A stretch of DNA of 64,000 nt from Emcibacter sp. SYSU 3D8 (GTDB lineage Bacteria; Pseudomonadota; Alphaproteobacteria; SMXS01). The notes under the pieces were generated by a model. It was given only the letters and a program-made list of their open reading frames with translations. It had not been told where the DNA came from and did not search any database. The stretch covers positions 496,001 to 560,000 of the forward strand of contig NZ_JBBYXK010000002.1 of assembly GCF_039655875.1 (NCBI RefSeq), given 5' to 3'. The position numbers and the translations under genes were made by a program. Every line of letters begins with the position of its first letter. Position 1 is the first letter of the stretch. Positions 18,512-29,969 of this stretch are shown here, piece by piece.

Positions 18512-20344
18512 TCAACCCGGCGATGCCGCCCCCGCCGTCCCTATCGTCAAAGCGGTGCAATAGCCCTTCCACCCTCCAAAGCCGGTGATGTCCTCGGCGC
18601 CGCGCACGGCCCATTCCTCGCAGAGGAAGCTCTTCACGCTGGTGCCGTCCTCCAGCTCGATGGTGCCGATGCCGAGCGGGCCGGGGATGCGGCCGACGAA
18701 GCGGCCGAAGGCGGCGTCGGTCAGGCGCCAGACCTCGATCTCCAGCCCCTTGCCCTTGAAGTCCGGATCGCGGATCAGCCCGGGCTTGGGCGGCGTGGTG
18801 TCGGGCAGCGCGAACAGCCGGTAGCTGCCGGCGGTGCGGCAGGCGCGCACGAATCGGGCGTCGAGTTCGGTGAGCTGGTGGTGCAGCGGCATGCCGCGCA
18901 GGTGGGCGCCGACCACGGCCAGGTCCACCCAGGCGGCGCCGGCCGGTTCGGCGACCAGCGAGCGGGCCGACAGCAGCTGGCCGGTGGCGCCGGCGCTCTC
19001 GACCAGCGCCCGGTGCAGCCGGTCGCCCAGCACGCCGAGCGCGTCGTCGGTGAAGGCCGGGCCGATCAGGGTCACGCCCAGCGGCAGGCCGTCGCGGCGC
19101 TTGCCGGCCGGCACGGCGAGGCCGCAGCAATCCAGCAGGTTCACGAAATTGGTGTAGAGGCCCAGATTGGCATTGTACTCGACCGGATTGGCCTCCATGT
19201 CCGCCACCGTGTAGGTGGTCGGGCAGGTGGGCAGCAGCATGAAGTCGAACTTTTCCCACTCGCGCGCCGCCACCCGTTCCAGCGCCTTCAGCCGGTATTG
19301 TCCCTCGAACCCATCGACGGCGCTGAACCGGCGGCCGCCCTGGATGATCTGGCGCACCACCGGATGCACCATCAAGGGGTTGTTGTTGAAGAAGGTCTGG
19401 ATCGCCGCCAGCCGCTCGGCCACCCACGGCCCGTCATAGAGCAGCGCGGCGGCGGCGCGGAAGGGCTGGTAATCGAAGGAAACCGCCTGCCCGCCCAGAC
19501 TGGCAAGCCGCTCGCAGGCGCGGTCGTAGAGGCCGGCAGCATCCCGGTCGCCCAGGAACTTGCGGTCTTCTTCCGCCAGCACGCCGAAGCGGAAGCCGCG
19601 CAGCGGAAGGGCTTTTGGCGTCATGGTCCGGCCATAGGGATCGTCGCCGTCATTGGCCGAGGCGATGCGCCGCACCCGGTTGCCGTCGCCCACATTGAGC
19701 GCGAACACGGTGACGCAATCGAGCGACCGGCACGCCGGCACCACGCCCGCCGTGCTGAGCAGGCCCTTGGTCGGCTTGACGCCGACGATGTTGTTGAGCG
19801 CCGCCGGCACCCGGCCCGACCCGGCCGTGTCGGTGCCGAGCGAGAACGAGACCATGCCCGAGGCAACGGCCACGGCAGAGCCCGAGCTGGAGCCGCCGGA
19901 GATATAGTCCTGGTCGAACACGCAGCGCGGCGCGCCATAGGGCGAGCGCGTGCCGTTGAGGCCGGTGGCGAACTGGTCCAGATTGGTCTTGCCGATGACG
20001 AGGGCGCCGGCGTCGAGCAGGCGTTGCACCGCCGTGGCGTTCTCCCAGGGCTGGTAGGCGTAGTCGGGGCAGGCCGCCGTGGTCGGCAGGCCGGCCACGT
20101 CGATGTTGTCCTTCACCGCGAACGGGATCCCGTAGAGCGGCAACCCGTCGACGCCCTCGGGCCGCGCGGCCACCGCCCGAGCCTTGTTCAGCGCCTCCTC
20201 GCGCGGGAACAGGCTGATCCACACCGCCTTGTCGGGCCAAGCCTCGATCCGGTCATAGACCTCGGCGATCACCGCCTCGGGCGTGGTGTGGCCCTCGCGA
20301 TAGGCGGCAAGGAGGTCTTCGATCTGAAACGATGACAAGGGCAT
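18512..20344 (-). CDS. atzF: Allophanate hydrolase
   Basis: 610-residue amidase-signature enzyme that splits allophanate to two ammonia and CO2, last step of the guanidine/urea carboxylase route. Catalytic Lys78 lies in FAVKDNIDVAG, the Ser-rich loop GGSSSGSA is at 151-157, and the nucleophile is Ser176 of GTDTAGSGRVPA. A C-terminal allophanate-hydrolase domain (about 465-610) is present. The ATG overlaps the carboxylase stop by one base (TGATG); a longer upstream frame is a shadow. After the usual GFGGWKGY ending there are about 14 unusual residues, and the 195 bases beyond carry no gene, so the 3' end may have been changed when the neighbouring low-GC module arrived. Confidence 0.94.
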   Translation of the reverse strand: MPLSSFQIEDLLAAYREGHTTPEAVIAEVYDRIEAWPDKAVWISLFPREEALNKARAVAARPEGVDGLPLYGIPFAVKDNIDVAGLPTTAACPDYAYQPWENATAVQRLLDAGALVIGKTNLDQFATGLNGTRSPYGAPRCVFDQDYISGGSSSGSAVAVASGMVSFSLGTDTAGSGRVPAALNNIVGVKPTKGLLSTAGVVPACRSLDCVTVFALNVGDGNRVRRIASANDGDDPYGRTMTPKALPLRGFRFGVLAEEDRKFLGDRDAAGLYDRACERLASLGGQAVSFDYQPFRAAAALLYDGPWVAERLAAIQTFFNNNPLMVHPVVRQIIQGGRRFSAVDGFEGQYRLKALERVAAREWEKFDFMLLPTCPTTYTVADMEANPVEYNANLGLYTNFVNLLDCCGLAVPAGKRRDGLPLGVTLIGPAFTDDALGVLGDRLHRALVESAGATGQLLSARSLVAEPAGAAWVDLAVVGAHLRGMPLHHQLTELDARFVRACRTAGSYRLFALPDTTPPKPGLIRDPDFKGKGLEIEVWRLTDAAFGRFVGRIPGPLGIGTIELEDGTSVKSFLCEEWAVRGAEDITGFGGWKGYCTALTIGTAGAASPG

Positions 20345-23300
20345 CAGGCGGCCTTCAATACGGCGACGACCTGTCCCGCCTGCACGGGACGGCCGGGTTG
20401 ACAGCGATATTCGCTGACCACGCCCGCAACCGGGGCAATGATGGCCAGCTCCATCTTCATGGATTCGACGATGACCAGGGTGTCGCCGGCCTCGACCGAC
20501 TGGCCCGGCTCGGCGACCAGCTTCCAGACATTGCCGGGGACGTGGGATTCGACGCCCACCGATCCTTCCGGCAGCGCGGCCTCGTCGGGAATGGCGGCGA
20601 CGGTCTCCTCGCCCACATAGGTGGCGAGGCCCTGCTCGGCCCAGCGCTGGCGCTCGGCCTCGAACGCCGACTGTTGCGTCGCCTTGAAAGCGGCAATGCC
20701 GTCGGCGTTGGCATCGAGAAAATGCGTGTATTCCTTGAGGCTGAAGCTGGTCTCCTCGATGTCGACCTTGTAGCGGCCATGGGGAAAGTCGGCGCGGGCC
20801 TCCAGCAGCGCGTCGGCCGACACCGGAAAGAACCGGATCTGGTCGAAATACCGGAGCAGCCACGGCACTTTGGGCTCGAACGGCTTCGGCTGGCGCCAGG
20901 TGTTCCACACCTGGATGGTGCGGCCGACCAGCTGGTAGCCGCCCGGCCCTTCCATGCCGTAGATGCACAGATAGGCGCCGCCGATGCCGACCGCGTTCTC
21001 CGGCGTCCAGGTGCGCGCCGGATTGTACTTGGTGGTGACCAGCCGGTGGCGCGGATCGACCGGCGTGGCGACGGGCGCGCCCAGATAGACGTCGCCCAGG
21101 CCGAGCACCATGTAGCTGGCGTCGAAGAACAGCTTGTAGACGTCGTCGACGCTATCGAGCCCGTTGATCCGGCGGATGAACTCGATGTTGGACGGGCACC
21201 ACGGCGCGTCGGGCCGCACCAGCTCCATGTATTTTTGCGCCGCAAGCTGCGCCTGGTCGTCGTTCCACGACAGCGGCAGATGGACAATGCGCGACGGCAC
21301 CCGCATATCCTTGGCGTCGGGCAGGCTCACTTCCAGCGCCTTCAGGCCGTCCAGCAGCTTGCCCAGCGGCAGGGCGATGCTGTCGTAATGGATCTGCAGC
21401 GAGCGGATGCCCGGTGTCAGGTCGATAATGCCGGGCCAGTTCTCGGCTTCGATGGCCTGCATCAGCGCGTGGACCCGCATGCGCAGCGCGATGTCGAGCA
21501 CCAGCGGGCCGTATTCCACCAGCAGGTAGGAATCGCCGGCCGCGCGGTAGCACACCGGCACGTTATCCTCGGAATAACGCTCCAGAACGGCGTCCCGGTG
21601 ATGGGTGACCGGCGCCACGACCGGCGGCGGCGCGGCCAGGTTCATCACCGCCGCGTCCTGCGCCCTTCGCAGCGCCGCGGCCTCTTCCAGCTCCAGCCGC
21701 CGGAACCGCACCTTGTCGCCCGGCTTGAGCTGTCCGGTCTTCCACAATTCGGCATCCACGATCACCGCCGGGCAGACAAAGCCGCCCAGGCTGGGGCCGT
21801 CGGGGCCGAGGATGATCGGCATGTCGCCGGTAAAGTCGACGGCGCCGATGGCGTAGGCATTGTCATGGATGTTGGACGGATGCAGGCCCGCCTCGCCGCC
21901 GTCGGCCCGCGCCCATTGCGGCTTCGGCCCGATCAGCCGCACGCCGGTGCGCGAGGAGTTGAAGTGCACCTCGTATTCCGCCGCGAAGAAGGTCTCGATG
22001 TCGGCTTCGGTAAAGAAATCGGGTGCACCGTGCGGGCCGTAGAGCACGCCGATCTCCCAGGTCCGCGTCAGCGGCGGCAGCGCATCGGCGCGCAGCGTCT
22101 GGGGAACAGGAGCAACGTCCGTGCCGCTCAGCCGGAGCACGTCGCCGGTGCGCAAGGTGCCGGTGGCATGGCCGCCGAAGCCGCCCAGCCCGAAGGTAGC
22201 GCCCGAGCCCAGATAGTCGGGCACGTCGAAGCCGCCCGCGACCGCCAGGTAGGCCCGGTTGCCGGGTCCCTCGATGCCGCCGATGGCGAGGGTCTGCCCG
22301 GCTTTCACCGTCAGCGTCCGCCACCAGGCGACCGGCTCGCCGTCGAGCGCCGCCTTCATCTTCGCCCCGCCCAGCGCGATGACCGCGTCGCAGCCGAAGC
22401 GCAGGGTCGGGCCCGTGAGCGTGATCTCGAGGCCCGGCGCGCCTTCGTCATTGCCGACCAGCCGGTTGGCGAGGCGGAAGGAGAACGCGTCCATAGGGCC
22501 GCTCGGCGGCACGCCGACATTCCAGTAGCCGATGCGGCCGGGCCAGTCCTGGATGCTCGACTGGGCGCCGGGCGCCAGCACCTCGACCGACTTCGACACG
22601 AACGGGAACGACTTCAAGGTCGCCGTGATCGCCTTGCCGTCGCGGAATACCTGTGACCGGGCGATCTCGCGAAGATAGGCCAGATTGGTCTCGATGCCGT
22701 AAAGGGCGGACTTGTCGAGCGCGTCGGCCAGCTTCTCGACCGCGGCGGCGCGGGTCGGGCCGGAGACGATCAGCTTGGCCAGCATGGGATCGTAATAGGG
22801 CGGCACCTCGGTGCCGGACTCCACCCAGCCATCCACACGCGCCGAGCAGGGGAATGTCACCTGGGTCAACCGGCCGGCGCTGGGACGGAAATCCTTGGCG
22901 GGGTCTTCGGCGTAGATCCGCACCTCGATGGCCGCACCCTTCGGCTCGGGCACGTCCAGCGACAGTGTCTCGCCGGCCGCCTGGCGCACCATCCATTCCA
23001 CCAGATCGACGCCGAACACCTCTTCGGTGACGCAATGCTCGACCTGCAGCCGGGTATTGACCTCGAGAAAGTAGAAGGCCTCGGCGTCGACATCGTAGAC
23101 GAACTCGACGGTGCCGGCGGATTCGTAGTCGACGGTCTTGCCCAGCGCGACCGCGGCGGCGTGCAGGTCGAGGCGATTCCGGGCCGACAGGTTCGGCGCG
23201 GGGGTTTCCTCGACCACCTTCTGGTTGCGCCGCTGGAGTGAGCAGTCGCGTTCGCCCAGGGCAACCACATTGCCCTTGCCGTCACCGAAGACCTGCACCT

Positions 23301-23925
23301 CGATGTGCCGCGCCCGCGAGACGAATTTCTCGATGAACAGGCCCGCGTCGCCGAAATTGTTCTGGCTGAGGCGCTTCACTTCCTCGTAGCGGGCGCTGAG
23401 TTCAGCCTCGCCGTGGCACAGTTGCATGCCGATGCCGCCGCCGCCCGCCGTGCTCTTGAGCATGACCGGATAGCCGATTTCAGCCGCGGCGCGCATCGCT
23501 TCGCCGACGTCGGCCAGCAGGCCGGTGCCGGGAAGGAGCGGCACGCCGCTTCTCTCCGCGATCTCGCGCGCCGTGTGCTTCAGGCCGAATGCGCGCATGT
23601 GGTCCGCGCTCGGACCGATGAAGCGGACGCCATGAAGATCGAGCGTCTCGGCAAAGCCGGGGTTCTCGCTGAGGAAACCATAGCCGGGATGCACCGCCTC
23701 GGCGCCGGTCGCGGTGCACGCGTCGATGATGGCCTGCTGGTCAAGGTAGCTTTGGGCGGCGGGCGCCGGACCGATGCGGACCGCCTCGTCGGCCATCAGC
23801 ACGTGGCGCGCATGGCGGTCGGCGTCGGAATAGACGGCGACCGAGCCGACGCCCATGCGGCGCAGGGTACGGATGATCCGGCAGGCGATTTCGCCTCGGT
23901 TGGCGATCAGGACCTTGTTGAACAT
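20344..23925 (-). CDS. Guanidine (urea-type) carboxylase, biotin-dependent
   Basis: 1193 residues in the order biotin carboxylase (about 1-450; MFNKVLIANRGEIACRI, HPGYGFLSENPGFAETL), KipI/KipA-like carboxyltransferase (about 470-1080) and biotinyl domain with ESMKMELAI (biotin on Lys1157). It carboxylates urea to allophanate or guanidine to carboxyguanidine with ATP and bicarbonate. Many 'urea carboxylases' preceded by a guanidine-I riboswitch and linked to UAAP1/2 genes are known to prefer guanidine, and both markers are present here, so guanidine is the inferred substrate. I did not locate the Asp/Asn residue that is reported to separate the two groups. Confidence 0.92.
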   Translation of the reverse strand: MFNKVLIANRGEIACRIIRTLRRMGVGSVAVYSDADRHARHVLMADEAVRIGPAPAAQSYLDQQAIIDACTATGAEAVHPGYGFLSENPGFAETLDLHGVRFIGPSADHMRAFGLKHTAREIAERSGVPLLPGTGLLADVGEAMRAAAEIGYPVMLKSTAGGGGIGMQLCHGEAELSARYEEVKRLSQNNFGDAGLFIEKFVSRARHIEVQVFGDGKGNVVALGERDCSLQRRNQKVVEETPAPNLSARNRLDLHAAAVALGKTVDYESAGTVEFVYDVDAEAFYFLEVNTRLQVEHCVTEEVFGVDLVEWMVRQAAGETLSLDVPEPKGAAIEVRIYAEDPAKDFRPSAGRLTQVTFPCSARVDGWVESGTEVPPYYDPMLAKLIVSGPTRAAAVEKLADALDKSALYGIETNLAYLREIARSQVFRDGKAITATLKSFPFVSKSVEVLAPGAQSSIQDWPGRIGYWNVGVPPSGPMDAFSFRLANRLVGNDEGAPGLEITLTGPTLRFGCDAVIALGGAKMKAALDGEPVAWWRTLTVKAGQTLAIGGIEGPGNRAYLAVAGGFDVPDYLGSGATFGLGGFGGHATGTLRTGDVLRLSGTDVAPVPQTLRADALPPLTRTWEIGVLYGPHGAPDFFTEADIETFFAAEYEVHFNSSRTGVRLIGPKPQWARADGGEAGLHPSNIHDNAYAIGAVDFTGDMPIILGPDGPSLGGFVCPAVIVDAELWKTGQLKPGDKVRFRRLELEEAAALRRAQDAAVMNLAAPPPVVAPVTHHRDAVLERYSEDNVPVCYRAAGDSYLLVEYGPLVLDIALRMRVHALMQAIEAENWPGIIDLTPGIRSLQIHYDSIALPLGKLLDGLKALEVSLPDAKDMRVPSRIVHLPLSWNDDQAQLAAQKYMELVRPDAPWCPSNIEFIRRINGLDSVDDVYKLFFDASYMVLGLGDVYLGAPVATPVDPRHRLVTTKYNPARTWTPENAVGIGGAYLCIYGMEGPGGYQLVGRTIQVWNTWRQPKPFEPKVPWLLRYFDQIRFFPVSADALLEARADFPHGRYKVDIEETSFSLKEYTHFLDANADGIAAFKATQQSAFEAERQRWAEQGLATYVGEETVAAIPDEAALPEGSVGVESHVPGNVWKLVAEPGQSVEAGDTLVIVESMKMELAIIAPVAGVVSEYRCQPGRPVQAGQVVAVLKAA

Positions 23926-23926
23926 G

Positions 23927-24562
23927 TCACGCCGCGTCCCAGATCAGCACGCGGATCGGCGTGGGATTGAAGCCGTTGCAGGGATTGTTCACCTGCGGGC
24001 AATTGGAGATCACCACCAGCACGTCCATGGCCGCCTCCAGATCGACATAGCCCAGCGGCTCGGAGATGCCGTCGTCGATGTTGACCTCGCCGTCCGGACT
24101 GATCGGCACATTCATGAAGAAGTTGATGTTGCCGACGATGTCCCGCTTGGACATGCCGTATTTCGAGACCTCGAGCAGGAAGTTCTCGCGGCAGGCATGC
24201 ATGTATCTGGTCTGGTGGCCGAACCGCACGGTGTTGCTCTCGCATGAGCAGGCGCCGGCCGAGGTGTCGTGGCGGCCGCAGGTGTCGGCGACCAGCGTCG
24301 CCATCACGTTGCCCTCGTTGGACATCAGCGCCGTCCCCGCCTCGATATAGGCGGCGCCCTGGGCTGTCAGCGTGTCCTGGGCGCTGTACCGCTCGGTGGT
24401 GTTGTGGGCGTTGTAGAGAATGGTGTCGACGGCCTGCTGGCTTTCCAGGTCGACGATGCGCAGCACCTGGCCCTGCTTCACGACACCCGACCACGGCTTC
24501 TGGGCGGGAATGACGAAATCGTAGGCAGCAGCCGCGTAATCACGCTCGATGAACTTTGTCAT
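23927..24562 (-). CDS. Carboxyguanidine deiminase subunit (urea carboxylase-associated protein 2, DUF1989)
   Basis: 211-residue DUF1989 protein. It has the family Cys/His cluster ADTCGRHDTSAGACSCESN, the MHACRENFLLE stretch, and the closing SNCPQVNNPCNGFNPTPIRV. Proteins of this type, once named urea carboxylase-associated, form with their partner the CgdAB enzyme that deiminates carboxyguanidine to allophanate and ammonia, explaining how guanidine carboxylase feeds allophanate hydrolase. The ATG at 24562 follows a GGAGG site; the longer frame upstream is out of register with the family start. One base separates it from the carboxylase gene. Confidence 0.87.
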   Translation of the reverse strand: MTKFIERDYAAAAYDFVIPAQKPWSGVVKQGQVLRIVDLESQQAVDTILYNAHNTTERYSAQDTLTAQGAAYIEAGTALMSNEGNVMATLVADTCGRHDTSAGACSCESNTVRFGHQTRYMHACRENFLLEVSKYGMSKRDIVGNINFFMNVPISPDGEVNIDDGISEPLGYVDLEAAMDVLVVISNCPQVNNPCNGFNPTPIRVLIWDAA

Positions 24563-24572
24563 GTCCGCCTCC

Positions 24573-25400
24573 CTATGCCTTGCCGTCGAACAGCGGATCG
24601 GTGTTCTCGAAGCCTCGTATGGCTTCCTCCGTCGCCGTGCGGCAGAGGTCGTCGTCGCCGGGGCCGGGCGACCTCCAGACGATCGCCTCGACGGCTTTAG
24701 GCGCATAGACCGGCGATGGATCGAGCGGGTGCGGGCAATTGGACAACACCGCCAGCACGTTCATCTCGGCGCGCAAATCCACATAATCGCCGGCCTTGTC
24801 GTGACCACCGGCCCAGGTGAAGCGGCCATCCTCGCCGACCCTGACGCCGGCGAAGAAGGTGACGCATGGCGGCACGTCCTTGACGCCCATGCCGTGCTTG
24901 CCCGCCGCCAGCCGGAAATTGTCGCGGCTGTTCCGCAAGGTGTCGTCACCGTATTTGCGGACGTTGCTGAACGGCGTCGAGCCGCCCGCGATAAAATCGT
25001 GCCGGCCCGCCGCCGTGTCATCGGTGATCGACATCAACACCCGGCCCATGTCGGAAAACAGCACCCGGCCCTTCGACAAATTGGCGTGCCATTGCACCTT
25101 GACGGTGTCGCCGGCGTTGTAGCGCTCGCTGGTATCGTCGATGTTCCAGAACAGCGCCGACACGCTGCCGGTGCCGCCATTGACGATGCGCAGGGTTTGC
25201 CCGCGCGGGATCACCATGCCCCAGTACCAGCCGCCGGGGATGATTTCCCGGTGGACGACCTTCCTGGGCTTGATGCGTGCGGGGTTGGATGGTTCCTGCG
25301 CCGCCTGGGCGAGACGCGGCGACATGTCGTGGGCGCCGGCCCTCAGTTGCTCGTAGCGGCGGCGGAATTCCTCCGGGGTGGCCTGGTCTGGCGCGGTCAT
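24573..25400 (-). CDS. Carboxyguanidine deiminase subunit (urea carboxylase-associated protein 1, DUF1989)
   Basis: 275-residue paralogue of the downstream DUF1989 protein, with the matching segments QTLRIVNGGTGSVSALFWN, SITDDTAAGRHDFIAG and SNCPHPLDPSPVYAPKAVE, and an N-terminal extension of about 60 residues. The Cys cluster seen in the partner is not preserved here (AAGRHD without the two following Cys), so the subunits are probably not equivalent and the metal or active site may lie mainly in the other. Start at the ATG at 25400 (GGAGG six bases before). Ten bases from the partner gene; same operon. Confidence 0.85.
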   Translation of the reverse strand: MTAPDQATPEEFRRRYEQLRAGAHDMSPRLAQAAQEPSNPARIKPRKVVHREIIPGGWYWGMVIPRGQTLRIVNGGTGSVSALFWNIDDTSERYNAGDTVKVQWHANLSKGRVLFSDMGRVLMSITDDTAAGRHDFIAGGSTPFSNVRKYGDDTLRNSRDNFRLAAGKHGMGVKDVPPCVTFFAGVRVGEDGRFTWAGGHDKAGDYVDLRAEMNVLAVLSNCPHPLDPSPVYAPKAVEAIVWRSPGPGDDDLCRTATEEAIRGFENTDPLFDGKA

Positions 25401-25410
25401 GATGTCCTCC

Positions 25411-26229
25411 TTATTGACCGACGCCGGGCCGTCCCGGCAAAGCCTCGAGCTCGTCGAGCAGGTGGGTCGTCCCACCCGAGGCAGTGTGCGTGTCTGATAC
25501 GGGGTATTTCGGCGGCCAGACGGCCAGATCATGGGTGATGGTGGCGCCGTAGCGTTCGCGTTCCTCGGGCCGGTTGCGAAGCCGGTCGAAGGCGATGACC
25601 CGGGTGCCGAGATGAAACGCCTCGGACAGGTCGTGGGTGACCATGAACACGGTCATCCGGGTTTCGCGCCACAGCTTCAGCATCAGCACGTGGATCTCGG
25701 CGCGGATGCCCGGATCGAGCGCGCCGAACGGCTCGTCCAGCAGCAGGATGCGCGGCCGCTTGACCAGCGCCTGGGCAATGGCGAGGCGCTGCTGCATGCC
25801 GCCCGACAGCTGGCTGGGATAAAGGTTGATGAAATCGCCCAGCCCGACGGCGGTCAGCATTTCGGTCGCCTCGTCGCGGGCTTTCCGCTTCGCCTTGCCG
25901 AACAGCATGCCCAGGAATGGCGCGGCGGCGAATTCCATGCCCAGCATCACGTTCTCCAGCACCGTCAGGTGCGGAAACACGGAATAGCGCTGGAACACCA
26001 CACCCCGATCGGCGGTGGGCTCATCGGGGAGACGCTCGCCCTCGACCAGGATGTCGCCCCTGGTGGGCGTCTCCGCCGAGAGCAGCATGCGCAGGAAGGT
26101 GGACTTGCCGCAGCCGGAGGGGCCGACCAGCGACACGAAGGAATGGGGCTCGACCTCGAGCGACACCTGCTCGAGCACGATGCGCCCGTCATATTCTTTC
26201 CAGACGTTCTGGACGCTGACGGCGGTCAT
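25411..26229 (-). CDS. ABC transporter ATP-binding protein, guanidine/urea-carboxylase-linked
   Basis: 272-residue ATPase of the nitrate/sulfonate/taurine class. Walker A is GPSGCGKSTFLRM (near residue 40), the signature is LSGGMQQRLAIAQAL, Walker B is ILLLDEPFGALD and the switch is VTHDLSEAF. The ATG at 26229 overlaps the permease stop by one base; the longer in-frame reading runs through the permease gene in another frame and is a shadow. With the next two genes it forms a complete importer, expected to bring guanidine or a guanidino compound into the cell. Confidence 0.92.
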   Translation of the reverse strand: MTAVSVQNVWKEYDGRIVLEQVSLEVEPHSFVSLVGPSGCGKSTFLRMLLSAETPTRGDILVEGERLPDEPTADRGVVFQRYSVFPHLTVLENVMLGMEFAAAPFLGMLFGKAKRKARDEATEMLTAVGLGDFINLYPSQLSGGMQQRLAIAQALVKRPRILLLDEPFGALDPGIRAEIHVLMLKLWRETRMTVFMVTHDLSEAFHLGTRVIAFDRLRNRPEERERYGATITHDLAVWPPKYPVSDTHTASGGTTHLLDELEALPGRPGVGQ

Positions 26230-27086
26230 CAGCTTCTCCCCTGCGCGAACCAGGGATAGGCCTTGCGCTGCAACCGCCGCAGACCGAAATCGAGGGCGAA
26301 GGCGAGCAGGGTGATCCAGGCCACATAAGGCAGGATCGTATCCATGGCGAGATAACGCCTGAGCAGGAAGATGCGGTAGCCGAGACCCGCCTGGGAGGCG
26401 ATGGCTTCCGCCGCGATCAGGAACAGCCAGGCCGAGCACAGTGACAGCCTGACCGAATCGATCAGTCTGGGCATCATCTGCGGCACGACCACGCGCAGGG
26501 CGATCTGCCACGTCGAGGCGCCGAGCGTCTGGGCCTTCACCATCAACTCCCTCGGCATCTCGTCGACCCGAAGGATCATGTCCCGCATCACCACGGGCGC
26601 GACGCCAATGACGATGAGCGCCACCTTGGACGTCTCGCCCAGCCCGAAGATGATGAACAGGATCGGCAGGATGGCGAGCGGCGGGATCATCGCGATGACC
26701 CCGACGAAGCCATTGAAAGTGGTCCGCATATAGGGCACCAGGCCGATGGCGATGCCGAATACCCCGGCCATCACCGTGGCGATGGCCAGCCCGGCCAGCA
26801 ATCGGGCAAGGCTGGCCGCGGTGTCGACCCACAAAAGCACGTCACCGGTTCGTGGATCGGCCTCGAACGCCATGCGGGCGAAGCCGGCGCCGATAGACGC
26901 GAGCGACGGCAGCAGCTTGTCGTCAGGGTTGATGGCAAGCCGGGCCGCCGATGCGAAAAGGTAGGCGAGCAGCAGCAGAATGAAGGGGAGCGCCGCCAGG
27001 AACAGCGCCGTACCCCGCGTCGGATAGACATTGATCATGCGCTTGCGCTTGACCGGTCTGCCGCCCGCCGTCGCGTCCATCGTCAC
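26229..27086 (-). CDS. ABC transporter permease, guanidine/urea-carboxylase-linked
   Basis: 285-residue inner-membrane permease of the SsuC/TauC type. About six hydrophobic helices are visible, beginning with TALFLAALPFILLLLAYLF, and the EAA loop that contacts the ATPase reads AQTLGASTWQIALRVVVPQMMPRLID. It is one base overlapped with the ATPase start and starts four bases after the binding-protein stop. An internal Met at residue 3 is an alternative start. The full transporter is typical of operons classed as 'urea carboxylase region' transporters. Confidence 0.92.
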   Translation of the reverse strand: MTMDATAGGRPVKRKRMINVYPTRGTALFLAALPFILLLLAYLFASAARLAINPDDKLLPSLASIGAGFARMAFEADPRTGDVLLWVDTAASLARLLAGLAIATVMAGVFGIAIGLVPYMRTTFNGFVGVIAMIPPLAILPILFIIFGLGETSKVALIVIGVAPVVMRDMILRVDEMPRELMVKAQTLGASTWQIALRVVVPQMMPRLIDSVRLSLCSAWLFLIAAEAIASQAGLGYRIFLLRRYLAMDTILPYVAWITLLAFALDFGLRRLQRKAYPWFAQGRS

Positions 27087-27090
27087 GTCC

Positions 27091-28161
27091 TTATTCGGCC
27101 TTGGCGGCTTCGTTCATATAGGCGGCGGTGAAGCGGAACTTCACATTGTCCTTGTCGCCCAGCACCTTGCCGTCGGGGAAGGCGATGCCCACCACGTCGG
27201 CGCTGGCCGCGCCCTGGCCCAGCAGGCCGTGCGAGAACAGGAAGTTCCGCACCAGGTCCATGGTCTTGTAGAGGGTGCCGCCCATGGTGAACGAGGTGGC
27301 TTCCGCAGGCTTGTAGAACATGCGCGTGGTGGCAAGCTGCGCATCGTAGCCGGCCAGGTCGGTGCCCGAGGCCTTGCCCATGGCCTCGCGGGCGGCCTTA
27401 CCTTCGGGCGTGTCCGAGCTCATGATCTTCATGGTCTCGTACCACGCGCCGGTCAGCGCGCGCCCGAAGTTGGGATTATCCTTCAGGGTTTGGGTATTGA
27501 CCACCGAAAGGTCCATGATCTCGCCGGGGATCTGGGCGGAATCGAAGACCTTGTGAGCATTGCTGTCGGCAAGAATCTCGGCAACCAGCGGGTTCCAGGT
27601 GACCACAGACGTCACGTCACTGGTTTTCCAGGCCGCCACCATGTCGGCGTCCGAGGTGTTGACCACGGTGACGTCCTTCTCGGCCTTGTCGATGGATTGC
27701 AAGGCGCGGGCCAGCAGATAATGCGACACCGACAGCTCGACCAGGTTCACCTTCTGGCCGACGATGTCTGGCAGCTTGGTCTTGCCCTTGAGGATGAGCG
27801 CATCGTTGCCGTTGGAGAAATCGCCGACGATCAGCGCCGTGGTGTCGACGCCGCCGACCGACGGGATGGCGAGCGTGTCCATATTGGTGGCGACGACGCC
27901 GTCATAGGCGCCGGCGGTATATTGGTTGATCGATTCCACGTAGTCGTTGAACTGCACCACCTCGATCTTGATGCCGTATTTGTCGGCCCATTTCTTGACG
28001 ATGCCCTGATCGGCGGCCCAGCCCCATGGCATCCAGCCGGCGTAGATCGACCACGCGAACTTGAATTCGGTTTTCTTGGCGGCGCTTGCCGGTGCGGCAA
28101 AGGCCGTCAGCGTCATGGCGGCGATCGCCAGCGCGGCGATGAACCTGGATGTTTTCTGCAT
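27091..28161 (-). CDS. ABC transporter periplasmic substrate-binding protein, guanidine/urea-carboxylase-linked
   Basis: 356 residues with a Sec signal peptide (MQKTSRFIAALAIAAMTLTA, cleavage likely after AFAAPASA), then a NitT/TauT-like binding fold. The mature start KKTEFKFAWSIYAGWMPWGW is typical of the binding proteins encoded next to urea/guanidine carboxylases. First gene of the operon; its GGAGG ribosome site (28171-28175) is nine bases from the ATG and is embedded in a sequence that can be sequestered by the riboswitch expression platform. Ligand not shown by the sequence; guanidine is inferred from the riboswitch and enzymes. Confidence 0.93.
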   Translation of the reverse strand: MQKTSRFIAALAIAAMTLTAFAAPASAAKKTEFKFAWSIYAGWMPWGWAADQGIVKKWADKYGIKIEVVQFNDYVESINQYTAGAYDGVVATNMDTLAIPSVGGVDTTALIVGDFSNGNDALILKGKTKLPDIVGQKVNLVELSVSHYLLARALQSIDKAEKDVTVVNTSDADMVAAWKTSDVTSVVTWNPLVAEILADSNAHKVFDSAQIPGEIMDLSVVNTQTLKDNPNFGRALTGAWYETMKIMSSDTPEGKAAREAMGKASGTDLAGYDAQLATTRMFYKPAEATSFTMGGTLYKTMDLVRNFLFSHGLLGQGAASADVVGIAFPDGKVLGDKDNVKFRFTAAYMNEAAKAE

Positions 28162-28165
28162 AGTT

Positions 28166-28237
28166 CCAATCCTCCAAATACGAGTGCTGATCCGAGGATT
28201 GGCGAGGCCGAAAGTATGATGCCAATCCCAGCATCAT
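28166..28237 (-). promoter_or_regulatory. Riboswitch expression platform: competing hairpins that can hide the ribosome binding site
   Basis: Three overlapping hairpins can form in the leader RNA. A: ATGATGC (28231-28237) with GCATCAT (28216-28222). B: GGATTGGC (28221-28228) with GCCAATCC (28196-28203). C: CCAATCCTC (28194-28202) with GAGGATTGG (28166-28174), which contains most of the ribosome binding site. A and B share bases, and B and C share bases, so they exclude each other in turn. The 5' arm of A also overlaps the 3' strand of aptamer stem P1 (28235-28237). Expected logic: guanidine bound, P1 formed, A blocked, B formed, ribosome site free. No U-tract terminator is seen. Pairings are direct; the logic is inferred. 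Confidence 0.7.
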
Positions 28238-28349
28238 GGTGACCTCCCGGGCTTTTGTCCCGCCGTGTACTCGGCCGCTGTTCACCGGACGAGCGGCGGC
28301 TCTCGGACCAGTCGCGCGATTTGTTCGCGCCGGAACCCTAGCCACCATG
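28235..28349 (-). ncRNA. Guanidine-I riboswitch (ykkC class) aptamer
   Basis: Read on the minus strand, the leader holds the conserved guanidine-I segments in order: CTAGGGTTCCG, then TGGTCCGAGAGC, then ACACGGCGGGACAAAAGCCC followed by GGGAG. These are the near-invariant parts of the class. A closing stem P1 is formed by CATGGTG (28343-28349) and CACCATG (28235-28241), seven perfect pairs. It lies directly upstream of the substrate-binding-protein gene. Known family members sense free guanidinium and switch expression on. It sets the biological meaning of the whole downstream operon. Confidence 0.96.
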
Positions 28350-28360
28350 CCTTGGGTAAC

Positions 28361-28377
28361 AAGCAACTCCCGTGCCA
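28361..28377 (-). promoter_or_regulatory. Sigma-54 (RpoN) promoter of the guanidine operon
   Basis: On the minus strand TGGCACGGGAGTTGCTT matches the -24/-12 consensus TGGCACG-N4-TTGCW completely, with GG and GC exactly ten bases apart (28375-28376 and 28363-28364). Transcription would start near 28351, a base or two before the first base of riboswitch stem P1. Sigma-54 control usually means activation by an NtrC-type protein under nitrogen limitation, which suits a nitrogen-scavenging operon. A single TGCACC half-site resembling an NtrC site is at 28526-28531, too little to assign. Confidence 0.85.
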
Positions 28378-28461
28378 AGCGGGCAATTTCCGGGTTACCG
28401 GCAGTATGAGGGCCGCCGCAGCGCCGGCCCGGACAATCCATGGGCAGGCATTGTGCATTTT

Positions 28462-28491
28462 TTGGTCAATTAAGAGTTTCGCTCATATTAT
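28462..28491 (+). promoter_or_regulatory. Possible promoter of the aminopeptidase gene
   Basis: TTGGTC (28462-28467), an 18-base spacer and TATTAT (28486-28491) lie about 80 bases upstream of the preferred aminopeptidase start, in the 410-base gap that also holds the riboswitch and sigma-54 promoter of the opposite strand. The match is moderate. The remainder of this gap (28378-28461) shows nothing else clear. Confidence 0.35.
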
Positions 28492-28571
28492 AGCCACGCC
28501 GCGAAGCCCTTGGTCCGCCGCGCCTGGTGCATTACATACGGAGCGACCGAAATTCACAGGCAGGGGCGCTC

Positions 28572-29969
28572 GTGTTCGATTTCCTCACCGACAACCGTCC
28601 GGACGATACCGTCGCCATCACGGCGCTGACCGAGGCCGCCCTGCCGGGCTGGCTGGAAGCGCAACCCGGACCGGTCCGCAAATGGGCCGATCTTCATGGC
28701 TTCAAGGCAAAAAAGGCGCAGATCGTCACGCTGCCCGGCAGCGATGGCAATGTTGGCCGCGTGCTGCTGGGGCTGGGCAGCGGCGACGGGCCGCTGTCGC
28801 CATGGACCTTCGCCGGGCTGCCCGCCATCCTGCCACAGGGAAATTATGCCTTCGACGGCGTCCCCGATGCCGCCTTCGCCACCACCGCGGCGCTGGGCTG
28901 GGCGCTCGGCACCTACCGTTTCGAGCGGTACAAGCTGTCGGACGCCGAACCGCCGCGGCCGCATCCGCATCTGGCGATCCCCGACGGCTGCGACCGCGCC
29001 TATGTGGAGGCAGCCGCCCGGGCCACGTTCCTGGCCCGCGACCTGATCAACACGCCGCCTAACGACATGGGGCCGGCCGAACTGGAGCGCGAGGCGTTCG
29101 ACCTGGCCGCGCGCATCGGCGCCGAAGCGACCAGCGTCATCGGCGAGGATCTTCTCGACAGCAACTTCCCCGCGATCCACGCGGTCGGCAAGGGCAGCGA
29201 GCGGCCGCCGCGGCTGATCGACCTGCGCTGGGGGGATCCGTCCCATCCCAAGGTGACCCTGGTCGGCAAGGGTGTGTGCTTCGACACCGGCGGCTATAAC
29301 CTGAAACCCGGTTCGGGCATGGCGCTGATGAAAAAGGACATGGGCGGCGCGGCCCATGTGCTGGGCCTGGCCCATATGATCGCGGCCCTGAACCTGCCGG
29401 TTCGCCTGCGGGTGCTGGTGGCGGCGGTCGAGAACAGCGTGTCCGGCGGCGCGTTCCGGCCCAGCGATGTGATCGACACCCACAAGGGCCTGACGGTCGA
29501 AATCGGCAACACCGACGCCGAGGGAAGACTGGTTCTGGCCGACGCCCTGTCGCTCGCCAGCGAAGAATCGCCCGAATTGATCGTCGATTTTGCAACCCTG
29601 ACGGGTGCCGCACGCTCGGCTCTTGGCCCCGAAGTCGCGCCTTATTTCACCGATGGCGAGGACCTGGCGACGGCGCTTTCCCGAGCCGGAGAGGCGACGG
29701 CCGACCCGGTCTGGCGGCTGCCGTTGTGGCCGGCCTATGCGGACAACCTGAAAAGCAATATCGCCGATTTGCGCAATGACGGCGGCCCCTTCGCCGGCGC
29801 GGTGGTGGCGGCGCTGTTTCTGAAGCGTTTCGTGGCCAGGCCAGAACGCTGGATCCACCTTGACATCTATGCGTGGAATCCCGACAAGCGGGCCGGCCGC
29901 CTCATTGGTGGCGAAGTGATGGCAATGCGGGCTGTCTTCGACCTAATAAGGTCCCGGTTTGCCCGTTAA
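28572..29969 (+). CDS. M17 leucyl aminopeptidase family protein
   Basis: 465 residues from the GTG at 28572, which has AGGGG six bases upstream; an in-frame GTG at 28527 lacks a ribosome site and would add 15 residues. The C-terminal catalytic domain has the M17 metal-site sequences VGKGVCFDTGGYNLKPG, MKKDMGGAAHVLG and the signature NTDAEGRLVLADAL. It removes N-terminal residues from peptides in the cytoplasm using two metal ions. Followed 51 bases on by a MarR gene and an NlpC/P60 gene, a trio commonly kept together in alphaproteobacteria. Confidence 0.92.
   Translation: MFDFLTDNRPDDTVAITALTEAALPGWLEAQPGPVRKWADLHGFKAKKAQIVTLPGSDGNVGRVLLGLGSGDGPLSPWTFAGLPAILPQGNYAFDGVPDAAFATTAALGWALGTYRFERYKLSDAEPPRPHPHLAIPDGCDRAYVEAAARATFLARDLINTPPNDMGPAELEREAFDLAARIGAEATSVIGEDLLDSNFPAIHAVGKGSERPPRLIDLRWGDPSHPKVTLVGKGVCFDTGGYNLKPGSGMALMKKDMGGAAHVLGLAHMIAALNLPVRLRVLVAAVENSVSGGAFRPSDVIDTHKGLTVEIGNTDAEGRLVLADALSLASEESPELIVDFATLTGAARSALGPEVAPYFTDGEDLATALSRAGEATADPVWRLPLWPAYADNLKSNIADLRNDGGPFAGAVVAALFLKRFVARPERWIHLDIYAWNPDKRAGRLIGGEVMAMRAVFDLIRSRFAR

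Follow-up and report, generated by a model that had tools for sequence, protein, structure and literature searches.

Guanidine-I riboswitches (ykkC subtype 1, Rfam family RF00442) usually turn transcription on by way of a terminator, according to the passages of PMC12186494 that treat the class, and a passage of PMC11410670 calls the class a 'transcriptional suppressor'. The element studied here lies on the minus strand of a 64,000-nucleotide stretch of Emcibacter sp. SYSU 3D8 (contig NZ_JBBYXK010000002.1), hereafter the window, between a guanidine-I aptamer and the first gene of a guanidine-type operon. It shares the aptamer sequence, structure and gene association of the class, from which an ON sense is expected; however, no terminator is seen here, and a hairpin, called C below, would occlude the ribosome binding site (RBS). 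The original prediction for this leader, made from the sequence alone, described a translational relay of hairpins and set it against the mostly terminator-based members of the class. The contrast holds for the class, but it carries little weight within the phylum, where terminators accompany ~10% of the riboswitches of Pseudomonadota, as stated in a part of PMC12452182, and where the translational platform is common. Among the literature matches listed, no title or abstract opening describes a translational guanidine-I switch; the founding papers (Nelson 2017, Reiss 2017, Battaglia 2017) may already mention examples.

We propose, with a probability of roughly 0.6, that the element serves a guanidine-I ON riboswitch as its translational expression platform. 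The coordinates of its helices are given in Table 1. The loop of hairpin A and the first two bases of its 3' strand are occupied by b5, an upstream copy of the RBS sequence. A downstream strand, x (28203-28194), has two partners: with b5 it forms hairpin B, of nine pairs including one G-U, and with the RBS strand it forms hairpin C, whose nine perfect pairs cover the GGAGG of the Shine-Dalgarno (SD) sequence save its first base. These three hairpins were already in the original prediction, and the chain of shared bases that it described is there, 28222-28221 being common to A and B and 28202-28195 to B and C, as are the nine perfect pairs over the RBS. A fourth helix, D, is the link absent from that chain: it encloses A, its 5' strand takes bases of GGGAG, the conserved 3' end of the aptamer, and it cannot coexist with B without a pseudoknot. 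The exclusions of D/A with B, and of B with C, can be read from the sequence, and the helices are conserved to differing degrees. For the leader 28246-28159 the folding energy is -34.1 kcal/mol, a z of -3.73, and none of 200 shuffles is equally stable. An intrinsic terminator was considered and rejected for the window's leader: a scan of the minus strand over 28000-28700 finds nothing that resembles one, between the aptamer and the gene or elsewhere, and the leader lacks a run of five T, as had been predicted.

The switch would work as follows. Without guanidine, GGGAG and its flank (28248-28241) would pair with 28209-28204 to form D, closed over hairpin A; D and A together (-14.6 kcal/mol) would outcompete B (-12.5 kcal/mol) and keep b5 from x, which would take the newly transcribed RBS in C (-12.8 kcal/mol) and turn translation off. 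With guanidine, the folded aptamer would retain GGGAG, D would not form, and A alone (-7.2 kcal/mol) would yield to B, which would capture x while the RBS is inside, or just emerging from, the polymerase, allowing ribosomes to load. Since the full-length leader favours C with or without guanidine, the choice is probably made kinetically, during transcription, and in the energy model the switch works only if B lasts long enough for ribosome loading; on this view B would persist and translation would follow.

The comparative sample draws on two sources: a search with the protein of the first gene, from which 80 loci were kept of 291, and RF00442 searches, with matches in 8 of the 10 genomes of the order and 31 of the 385 of the class, 27 above the cut-off. 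The aptamer pattern was found in 106 of the 113 loci (it missed L062, L064, L067, L070, L085, L112 and L113), yielding 101 unique leaders in 56 clusters. Since cluster representatives are still mutually related, the p values below should be taken as guides.

In the cross-partner control, the pairing of strands from the same leader is compared with the pairing of strands from different leaders. Over the 56 clusters, the p value is 4.3e-6 for B, 5.8e-6 for C and 3.6e-5 for D (L084 lacks a C duplex, which distorts the mean but not the rank test). These signals are shifts of the whole set, the clusters that singly pass the 5% level being 11 for B, 8 for C and 3 for D. A test on the three strands b5, x and RBS gives the window's triple a z of 4.8, matched by 0 of 60 dinucleotide shuffles; among 55 representatives, L084 being dropped for its short leader, 24 are at no more than 3 of 60 shuffles, for ~3.6 expected (Fisher combined p 5e-14).

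Two alignments were then scored for compensatory changes. Alignment A1 starts from the 66 leaders in which a b5 motif can be recognised; removal of near-identical ones leaves 46, of which 44 are aligned (L037 and L043 were excluded by choice); alignment A2 holds 11 leaders chosen by eye for a hairpin A like that of the window. Hairpin B is paired in 94.8% of the cells of A1, with 28 double-change cells, and hairpin C in 79.5%, with 38 double-change cells spread over 6 of 8 pairs, while slid registers reach at most 54.1% and 57.4%, respectively. Hairpin A, in A2, is paired in 94.8% of the cells, with 8 double-change cells in 3 of 7 pairs and slid registers of at most 64.9%. The three alignable pairs of helix D in A1 are 95.5% paired, with 6 double-change cells, all within one pair, and a slid register with just 9 cells is 77.8% paired. 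For each of the four helices, none of 500 shuffles attains the percentage paired, the covariation score or the number of double-change cells; neither the number of pair types nor that of doubly changed pairs exceeds the shuffled values for any of them. One column triple b5-x-RBS illustrates the pattern: it reads G-C-G in 30 of the 44 leaders, A-U-A in 7, A-U-G in 4 and G-C-U in 3. On a quickly built tree holding 42 of the first-gene proteins (L094 and L100 were left out), its columns change 6 times in b5, 6 in x and 5 in the RBS; strongly supported branches alone leave b5/x with 2 independent pairs, a number too small to test. By these alignments, hairpins A, B and C exist and are conserved, and in the 44 chosen leaders the three strands of B and C vary in concert. 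Covariation, the check chosen in the original prediction, is thus present for all three, and its translational design is supported, with the SD lying within C and C covarying.

Folding simulations of the growing chain bear on the decision itself. For 3' ends from 28195 to 28170, the probability of B, P(B), is 0.83-0.97 when GGGAG is held, as it would be by a bound aptamer, versus 0.00-0.53 when it is free. In 44 leaders picked by hand and extended until x is out, mean P(B) goes from 0.36 free to 0.91 held, rising by more than 0.05 in 33 and falling in none. Among the representatives, the 31 that score 14 or more for the triple show a mean shift in P(B) of 0.49, versus 0.18 with scrambled spacers (p 6e-4), the rise being partly built in. 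At full length, on the other hand, the mean P(C) over the 44 leaders is 0.74 free and 0.71 bound. An equilibrium shift from C towards B is seen in L012, L094 and L035, and B is above C in both states in L007, L018 and L022. For the window's leader, folding was searched for an equilibrium ON state and found none: in these computed folds, a change in the accessibility of the SD with the ligand state appears in the growing chain only, and not at equilibrium in the full transcript.

Helix D would be the trigger, and the leaders offer additional evidence for it. Elsewhere the whole GGGAG lies within D, as in GGGAGAC/GUCUCCC (L017) and GGGAGAACG/CGUUCUCCC (L107). The mean probability that GAG is paired by the leader is 0.79, versus 0.66 in shuffled leaders (p 8e-4), and exceeds 0.8 in 31 of the 56 clusters. 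The original prediction had a different trigger: an outer stem, CATGGTG (28349-28343) with CACCATG (28241-28235), formed on ligand binding, would pull A apart directly and give B and translation. Its polarity, in which ligand gives B and B removes C, agrees with ours; its trigger fares less well. The stem is a perfect 7-bp match, extendable, with a duplex energy of -14.1 kcal/mol equalled by 1.4% of mismatched partners, and a fold with its 3' strand held disfavours A and favours B. However, at 28346-28343 it overlaps a strand of P1, the helix of the aptamer model, so that the two cannot fully form together; in the fold it replaces P1, and so accompanies a broken, unbound aptamer. It is also not kept in seven members of the same family, L002-L008, where its energy is -4.9 to -10.3 kcal/mol, equalled by 13-81% of mismatched partners; as an outer helix joining the aptamer ends, like the P0 of the phosphoribosyl pyrophosphate (PRPP) riboswitch, it is not conserved there. 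Over the 56 clusters it pairs no better than mismatched partners do, with a cross-partner p of 0.26 (0.089 with longer strands), 5 clusters singly passing the 5% level. In the passages of PMC6031431 on the subject, P0 is said not to be present in guanidine-I. The outer stem was rejected as a ligand-formed trigger, a version of the mechanism that we hold to be unlikely, and helix D is the better-supported of the two.

Outer helices do exist elsewhere in the class. In L032, L063, L109, L111 and L124-L128, a P0 of 6-11 bp joins the ends of the guanidine-I aptamer, in contrast with the statement of PMC6031431 and in agreement with the idea of an outer stem; these helices are largely compatible with P1 and differ in sequence (GUGCAG/CUGCAC, GGUACAG/CUGUACC). 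The RF00442 matches in 6 of the 36 genomes of another order were used solely for this observation. The 3' strand of the P0 of L032 lies inside its D/A hairpin, so the trigger of the original prediction may hold there.

Several results weigh against the switch as we propose it. That guanidine holds GGGAG is a reading of its conservation, and the aptamer pattern demands CCCGGGAG, which makes GGGAG invariant in the set by construction; similarly, A1 was chosen by its b5 motif and favours B. The threshold of the three-strand test is missed by 31 of the 55 representatives. Helix D is the weakest link of the chain, less certain than B: its double changes rest on a single pair, whose columns change 3 and 2 times on the tree, it singly passes the 5% level in fewer clusters than the outer stem, and the pairing of the window's GGGAG is equalled by 3 of 20 shuffles. 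In L011 (Methyloligella sp. GL2) the 3' strand of D, GGGGCCUCC, overlaps the 5' strand of C, GCCUCCGA, an arrangement that would turn the logic of the switch round there. The unbound state leaks, with a free P(B) of 0.46-0.53 at 3' ends 28180-28175, and P(B) is at least 0.8 even unbound in 12 of the 44 leaders, while the shift is at most 0.06 in 10 of the 31 representatives. C dominates once the 3' end is beyond 28168 and reaches ~0.99 in the full-length leader with GGGAG held or free, the B state being worse by 6.9 (bound) or 9.8 (free) kcal/mol of ensemble energy. The openness of the SD in the bound B state is 0.42, versus 0.20, and in L007, of the window's own family, the full-length leader forms B and leaves the SD open (0.88) whether bound or free.

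The fold that includes the aptamer adds a difficulty. Left unconstrained with its 3' end at 28192, it gives 0.57 to the outer stem and 0.55 to B, against 0.40 for P1 and 0.38 for D; at 28170 and 28150 the outer stem falls to at most 0.01 and D reaches 0.97 and 0.93. At 28150, pairing of leader bases with the aptamer brings C down to 0.58, with the SD 0.23 open. When P1 is forced, D is at 0.95-0.99 and B at 0.00 at all three lengths. Secondary-structure folding is blind to the tertiary structure of the aptamer, so these numbers are a warning and not a verdict; they favour a picture in which P1 and D go together, and the opposite polarity keeps a place among the alternatives. Because the outer stem competes with P1 at one of the lengths when no ligand is bound, we hold the ON switch, and its fuller kinetic version below, to be slightly less probable than we otherwise would, and its opposite slightly more so.

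In this opposite version, the helix CATGGTGGC/GTCACCATG forms without ligand and breaks P1, which turns B on in the unbound state and makes guanidine a repressor. The 5' strand of that helix does collide with P1, and the probabilities at 28192, both unconstrained and with P1 forced (D 0.95, B 0.00), go in its direction. The helix nevertheless vanishes at the two longer lengths and is not conserved, the more conserved helix D gives the other sign, and an uptake and degradation operon repressed by guanidine would run contrary to the ON behaviour of the class found in passages of PMC12186494 and PMC12508155; we judge it very unlikely. A less improbable alternative, though still on the unlikely side and only a little ahead of the outer stem, keeps the same helices and reads them out mainly at the transcript level: C would block ribosomes, and Rho or an RNase would remove the untranslated messenger RNA (mRNA). 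The lack of an intrinsic terminator in the window's leader suits this proposal, which supplements the occlusion of the RBS and does not replace it. Finally, in leaders of the Bradyrhizobium type, B followed by a run of T might be an intrinsic terminator, and those leaders transcriptional. A run of five T occurs in 6 of the 56 representative leaders, directly after B in L034, L048 and L049. But such runs are also the strand of C that pairs in the SD region, with AAGAGGG or AAAAGGG, and the window's leader has neither such a run nor a terminator-like site; we give this explanation hardly any weight. In the same three leaders, the TTTTT after B, which is also C's RBS-pairing strand, might act as a weak terminator too.

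Returning to the ON switch, its strongest form would be a one-pass kinetic translational device: the decoy copy of the RBS is exposed only when guanidine keeps GGGAG out of D, it captures the anti-SD strand during transcription, and the finished mRNA relaxes to OFF regardless of ligand, this platform being the common guanidine-I form in Alphaproteobacteria. We advance this full version tentatively, as distinctly less probable than the platform itself. As C is the equilibrium winner, ordinary probing of refolded RNA might falsely show no switching, even if the mechanism is right; an absence of change at 28166-28175, which the original prediction would have taken as its refutation, could thus mislead. 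If it is true, a translational form across many alphaproteobacterial lineages, with a decoy RBS evolving alongside the real one, would extend the picture of the class, and provide a natural case in which to ask if the choice of a riboswitch falls during transcription or at equilibrium.

Table 1. Features of the leader, the aptamers and the operon, in window coordinates
Feature	Position	Strand	Sequence	Remarks
Guanidine-I aptamer RF00442	28352-28242	minus		97.6 bits (gathering cut-off 63); E 1.5e-16; full model, 1-107 of 107
Aptamer P1 (RF00442 model)	28346-28341 with 28300-28295	minus
Conserved 3' end of aptamer	28248-28244	minus	GGGAG
Helix D, 5' strand	28246-28241	minus	GAGGUC	from folds; includes last three bases of GGGAG
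Hairpin A, 5' strand	28237-28231	minus	ATGATGC
Hairpin B, 5' strand (b5)	28229-28221	minus	GGGATTGGC	upstream copy of RBS sequence
Hairpin A, 3' strand	28222-28216	minus	GCATCAT
Helix D, 3' strand	28209-28204	minus	GGCCUC	from folds
Hairpin B, 3' strand (x)	28203-28195	minus	GCCAATCCT
Hairpin C, 5' strand (anti-SD, same x strand)	28202-28194	minus	CCAATCCTC
Shine-Dalgarno	28175-28171	minus	GGAGG	9 nt ahead of start codon
Hairpin C, 3' strand	28174-28166	minus	GAGGATTGG	over Shine-Dalgarno
First gene, NMT1-like substrate-binding protein	27091-28161	minus		356 aa, ATG at 28161; PF13379, 3.4e-9
Remaining operon open reading frames (ORFs)	20344-27086	minus
Permease ORF	27086-26229	minus
ABC ATPase ORF	26235-25411	minus
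Guanidine-II aptamer RF01068	25478-25424	minus		39.9 bits, gathering 32; second guanidine sensor of operon
Two DUF1989 protein ORFs	25400-24573 and 24706-23927	minus
Biotin-dependent carboxylase ORF	23925-20344	minus

The aptamer is an ordinary guanidine-I member, RF00442 being the sole Rfam family above threshold at its site in an Rfam search. It adjoins genes of guanidine type, for an ABC importer, two DUF1989 proteins, which we take to be carboxyguanidine deaminase subunits, and a biotin-dependent carboxylase; their order and spacing suggest a single transcript. The cluster resembles genes treated in parts of PMC12186494 and PMC12508155, those for the importer, the carboxyguanidine deaminase and the guanidine carboxylase; these papers also report that operons of this kind are induced by guanidine elsewhere, and by analogy with these published relatives guanidine would be the substrate of the operon's proteins. 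The quick tree holds two curious first-gene proteins, those of L012 and L017, from metagenome-assembled genomes labelled Thermodesulfobacteriota and Deltaproteobacteria, which adjoin L007 and the window's genus; either horizontal transfer or misbinned contigs would explain their placement.

The operon's second sensor, the guanidine-II aptamer, is wholly contained in the 3' end of the ABC ATPase coding sequence (stop codon 25413-25411), and right after it come a GGAGG and the start codon, ATG at 25400, of the first DUF1989 gene. It stands 2764-2767 bases downstream of the guanidine-I aptamer in four genomes (G000, the window's own, G003, G004 and G007), and RF01068 has a match in 6 of the 10 genomes of the order. 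The window's genome has another match, of 41.4 bits (G000:C10:3774-3818, locus L118).

Translational riboswitches of the Escherichia coli TPP (thiamine pyrophosphate) type use anti-SD and anti-anti-SD strands. The window's leader has the same plan, in which the SD and an upstream decoy are alternative partners of one strand and the choice would be co-transcriptional, but the aptamers are others there, and the window adds a D/A hairpin that would use the aptamer's 3' end to hide the decoy. With the PRPP riboswitch (ykkC subtype 2b), where passages of PMC6031431 make P0 a part of the expression platform, it shares an outer helix joining the aptamer ends; that of the window, however, is not conserved and overlaps P1. 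At the scale of the operon, the closest relatives are the two-riboswitch operons of Raoultella, Erwinia and Klebsiella, in parts of PMC12186494, and of Vreelandella boliviensis, in parts of PMC12508155, which have the same guanidine-I switch at the head, guanidine-II switch inside the cluster, and ABC importer with carboxylase pathway. In Vreelandella, according to the latter, guanidine-I presumably acts on an intrinsic terminator and guanidine-II lies between cgdB and gca, whereas in the window guanidine-I looks translational and guanidine-II sits within the coding region of the ATPase, upstream of the first DUF1989 gene.
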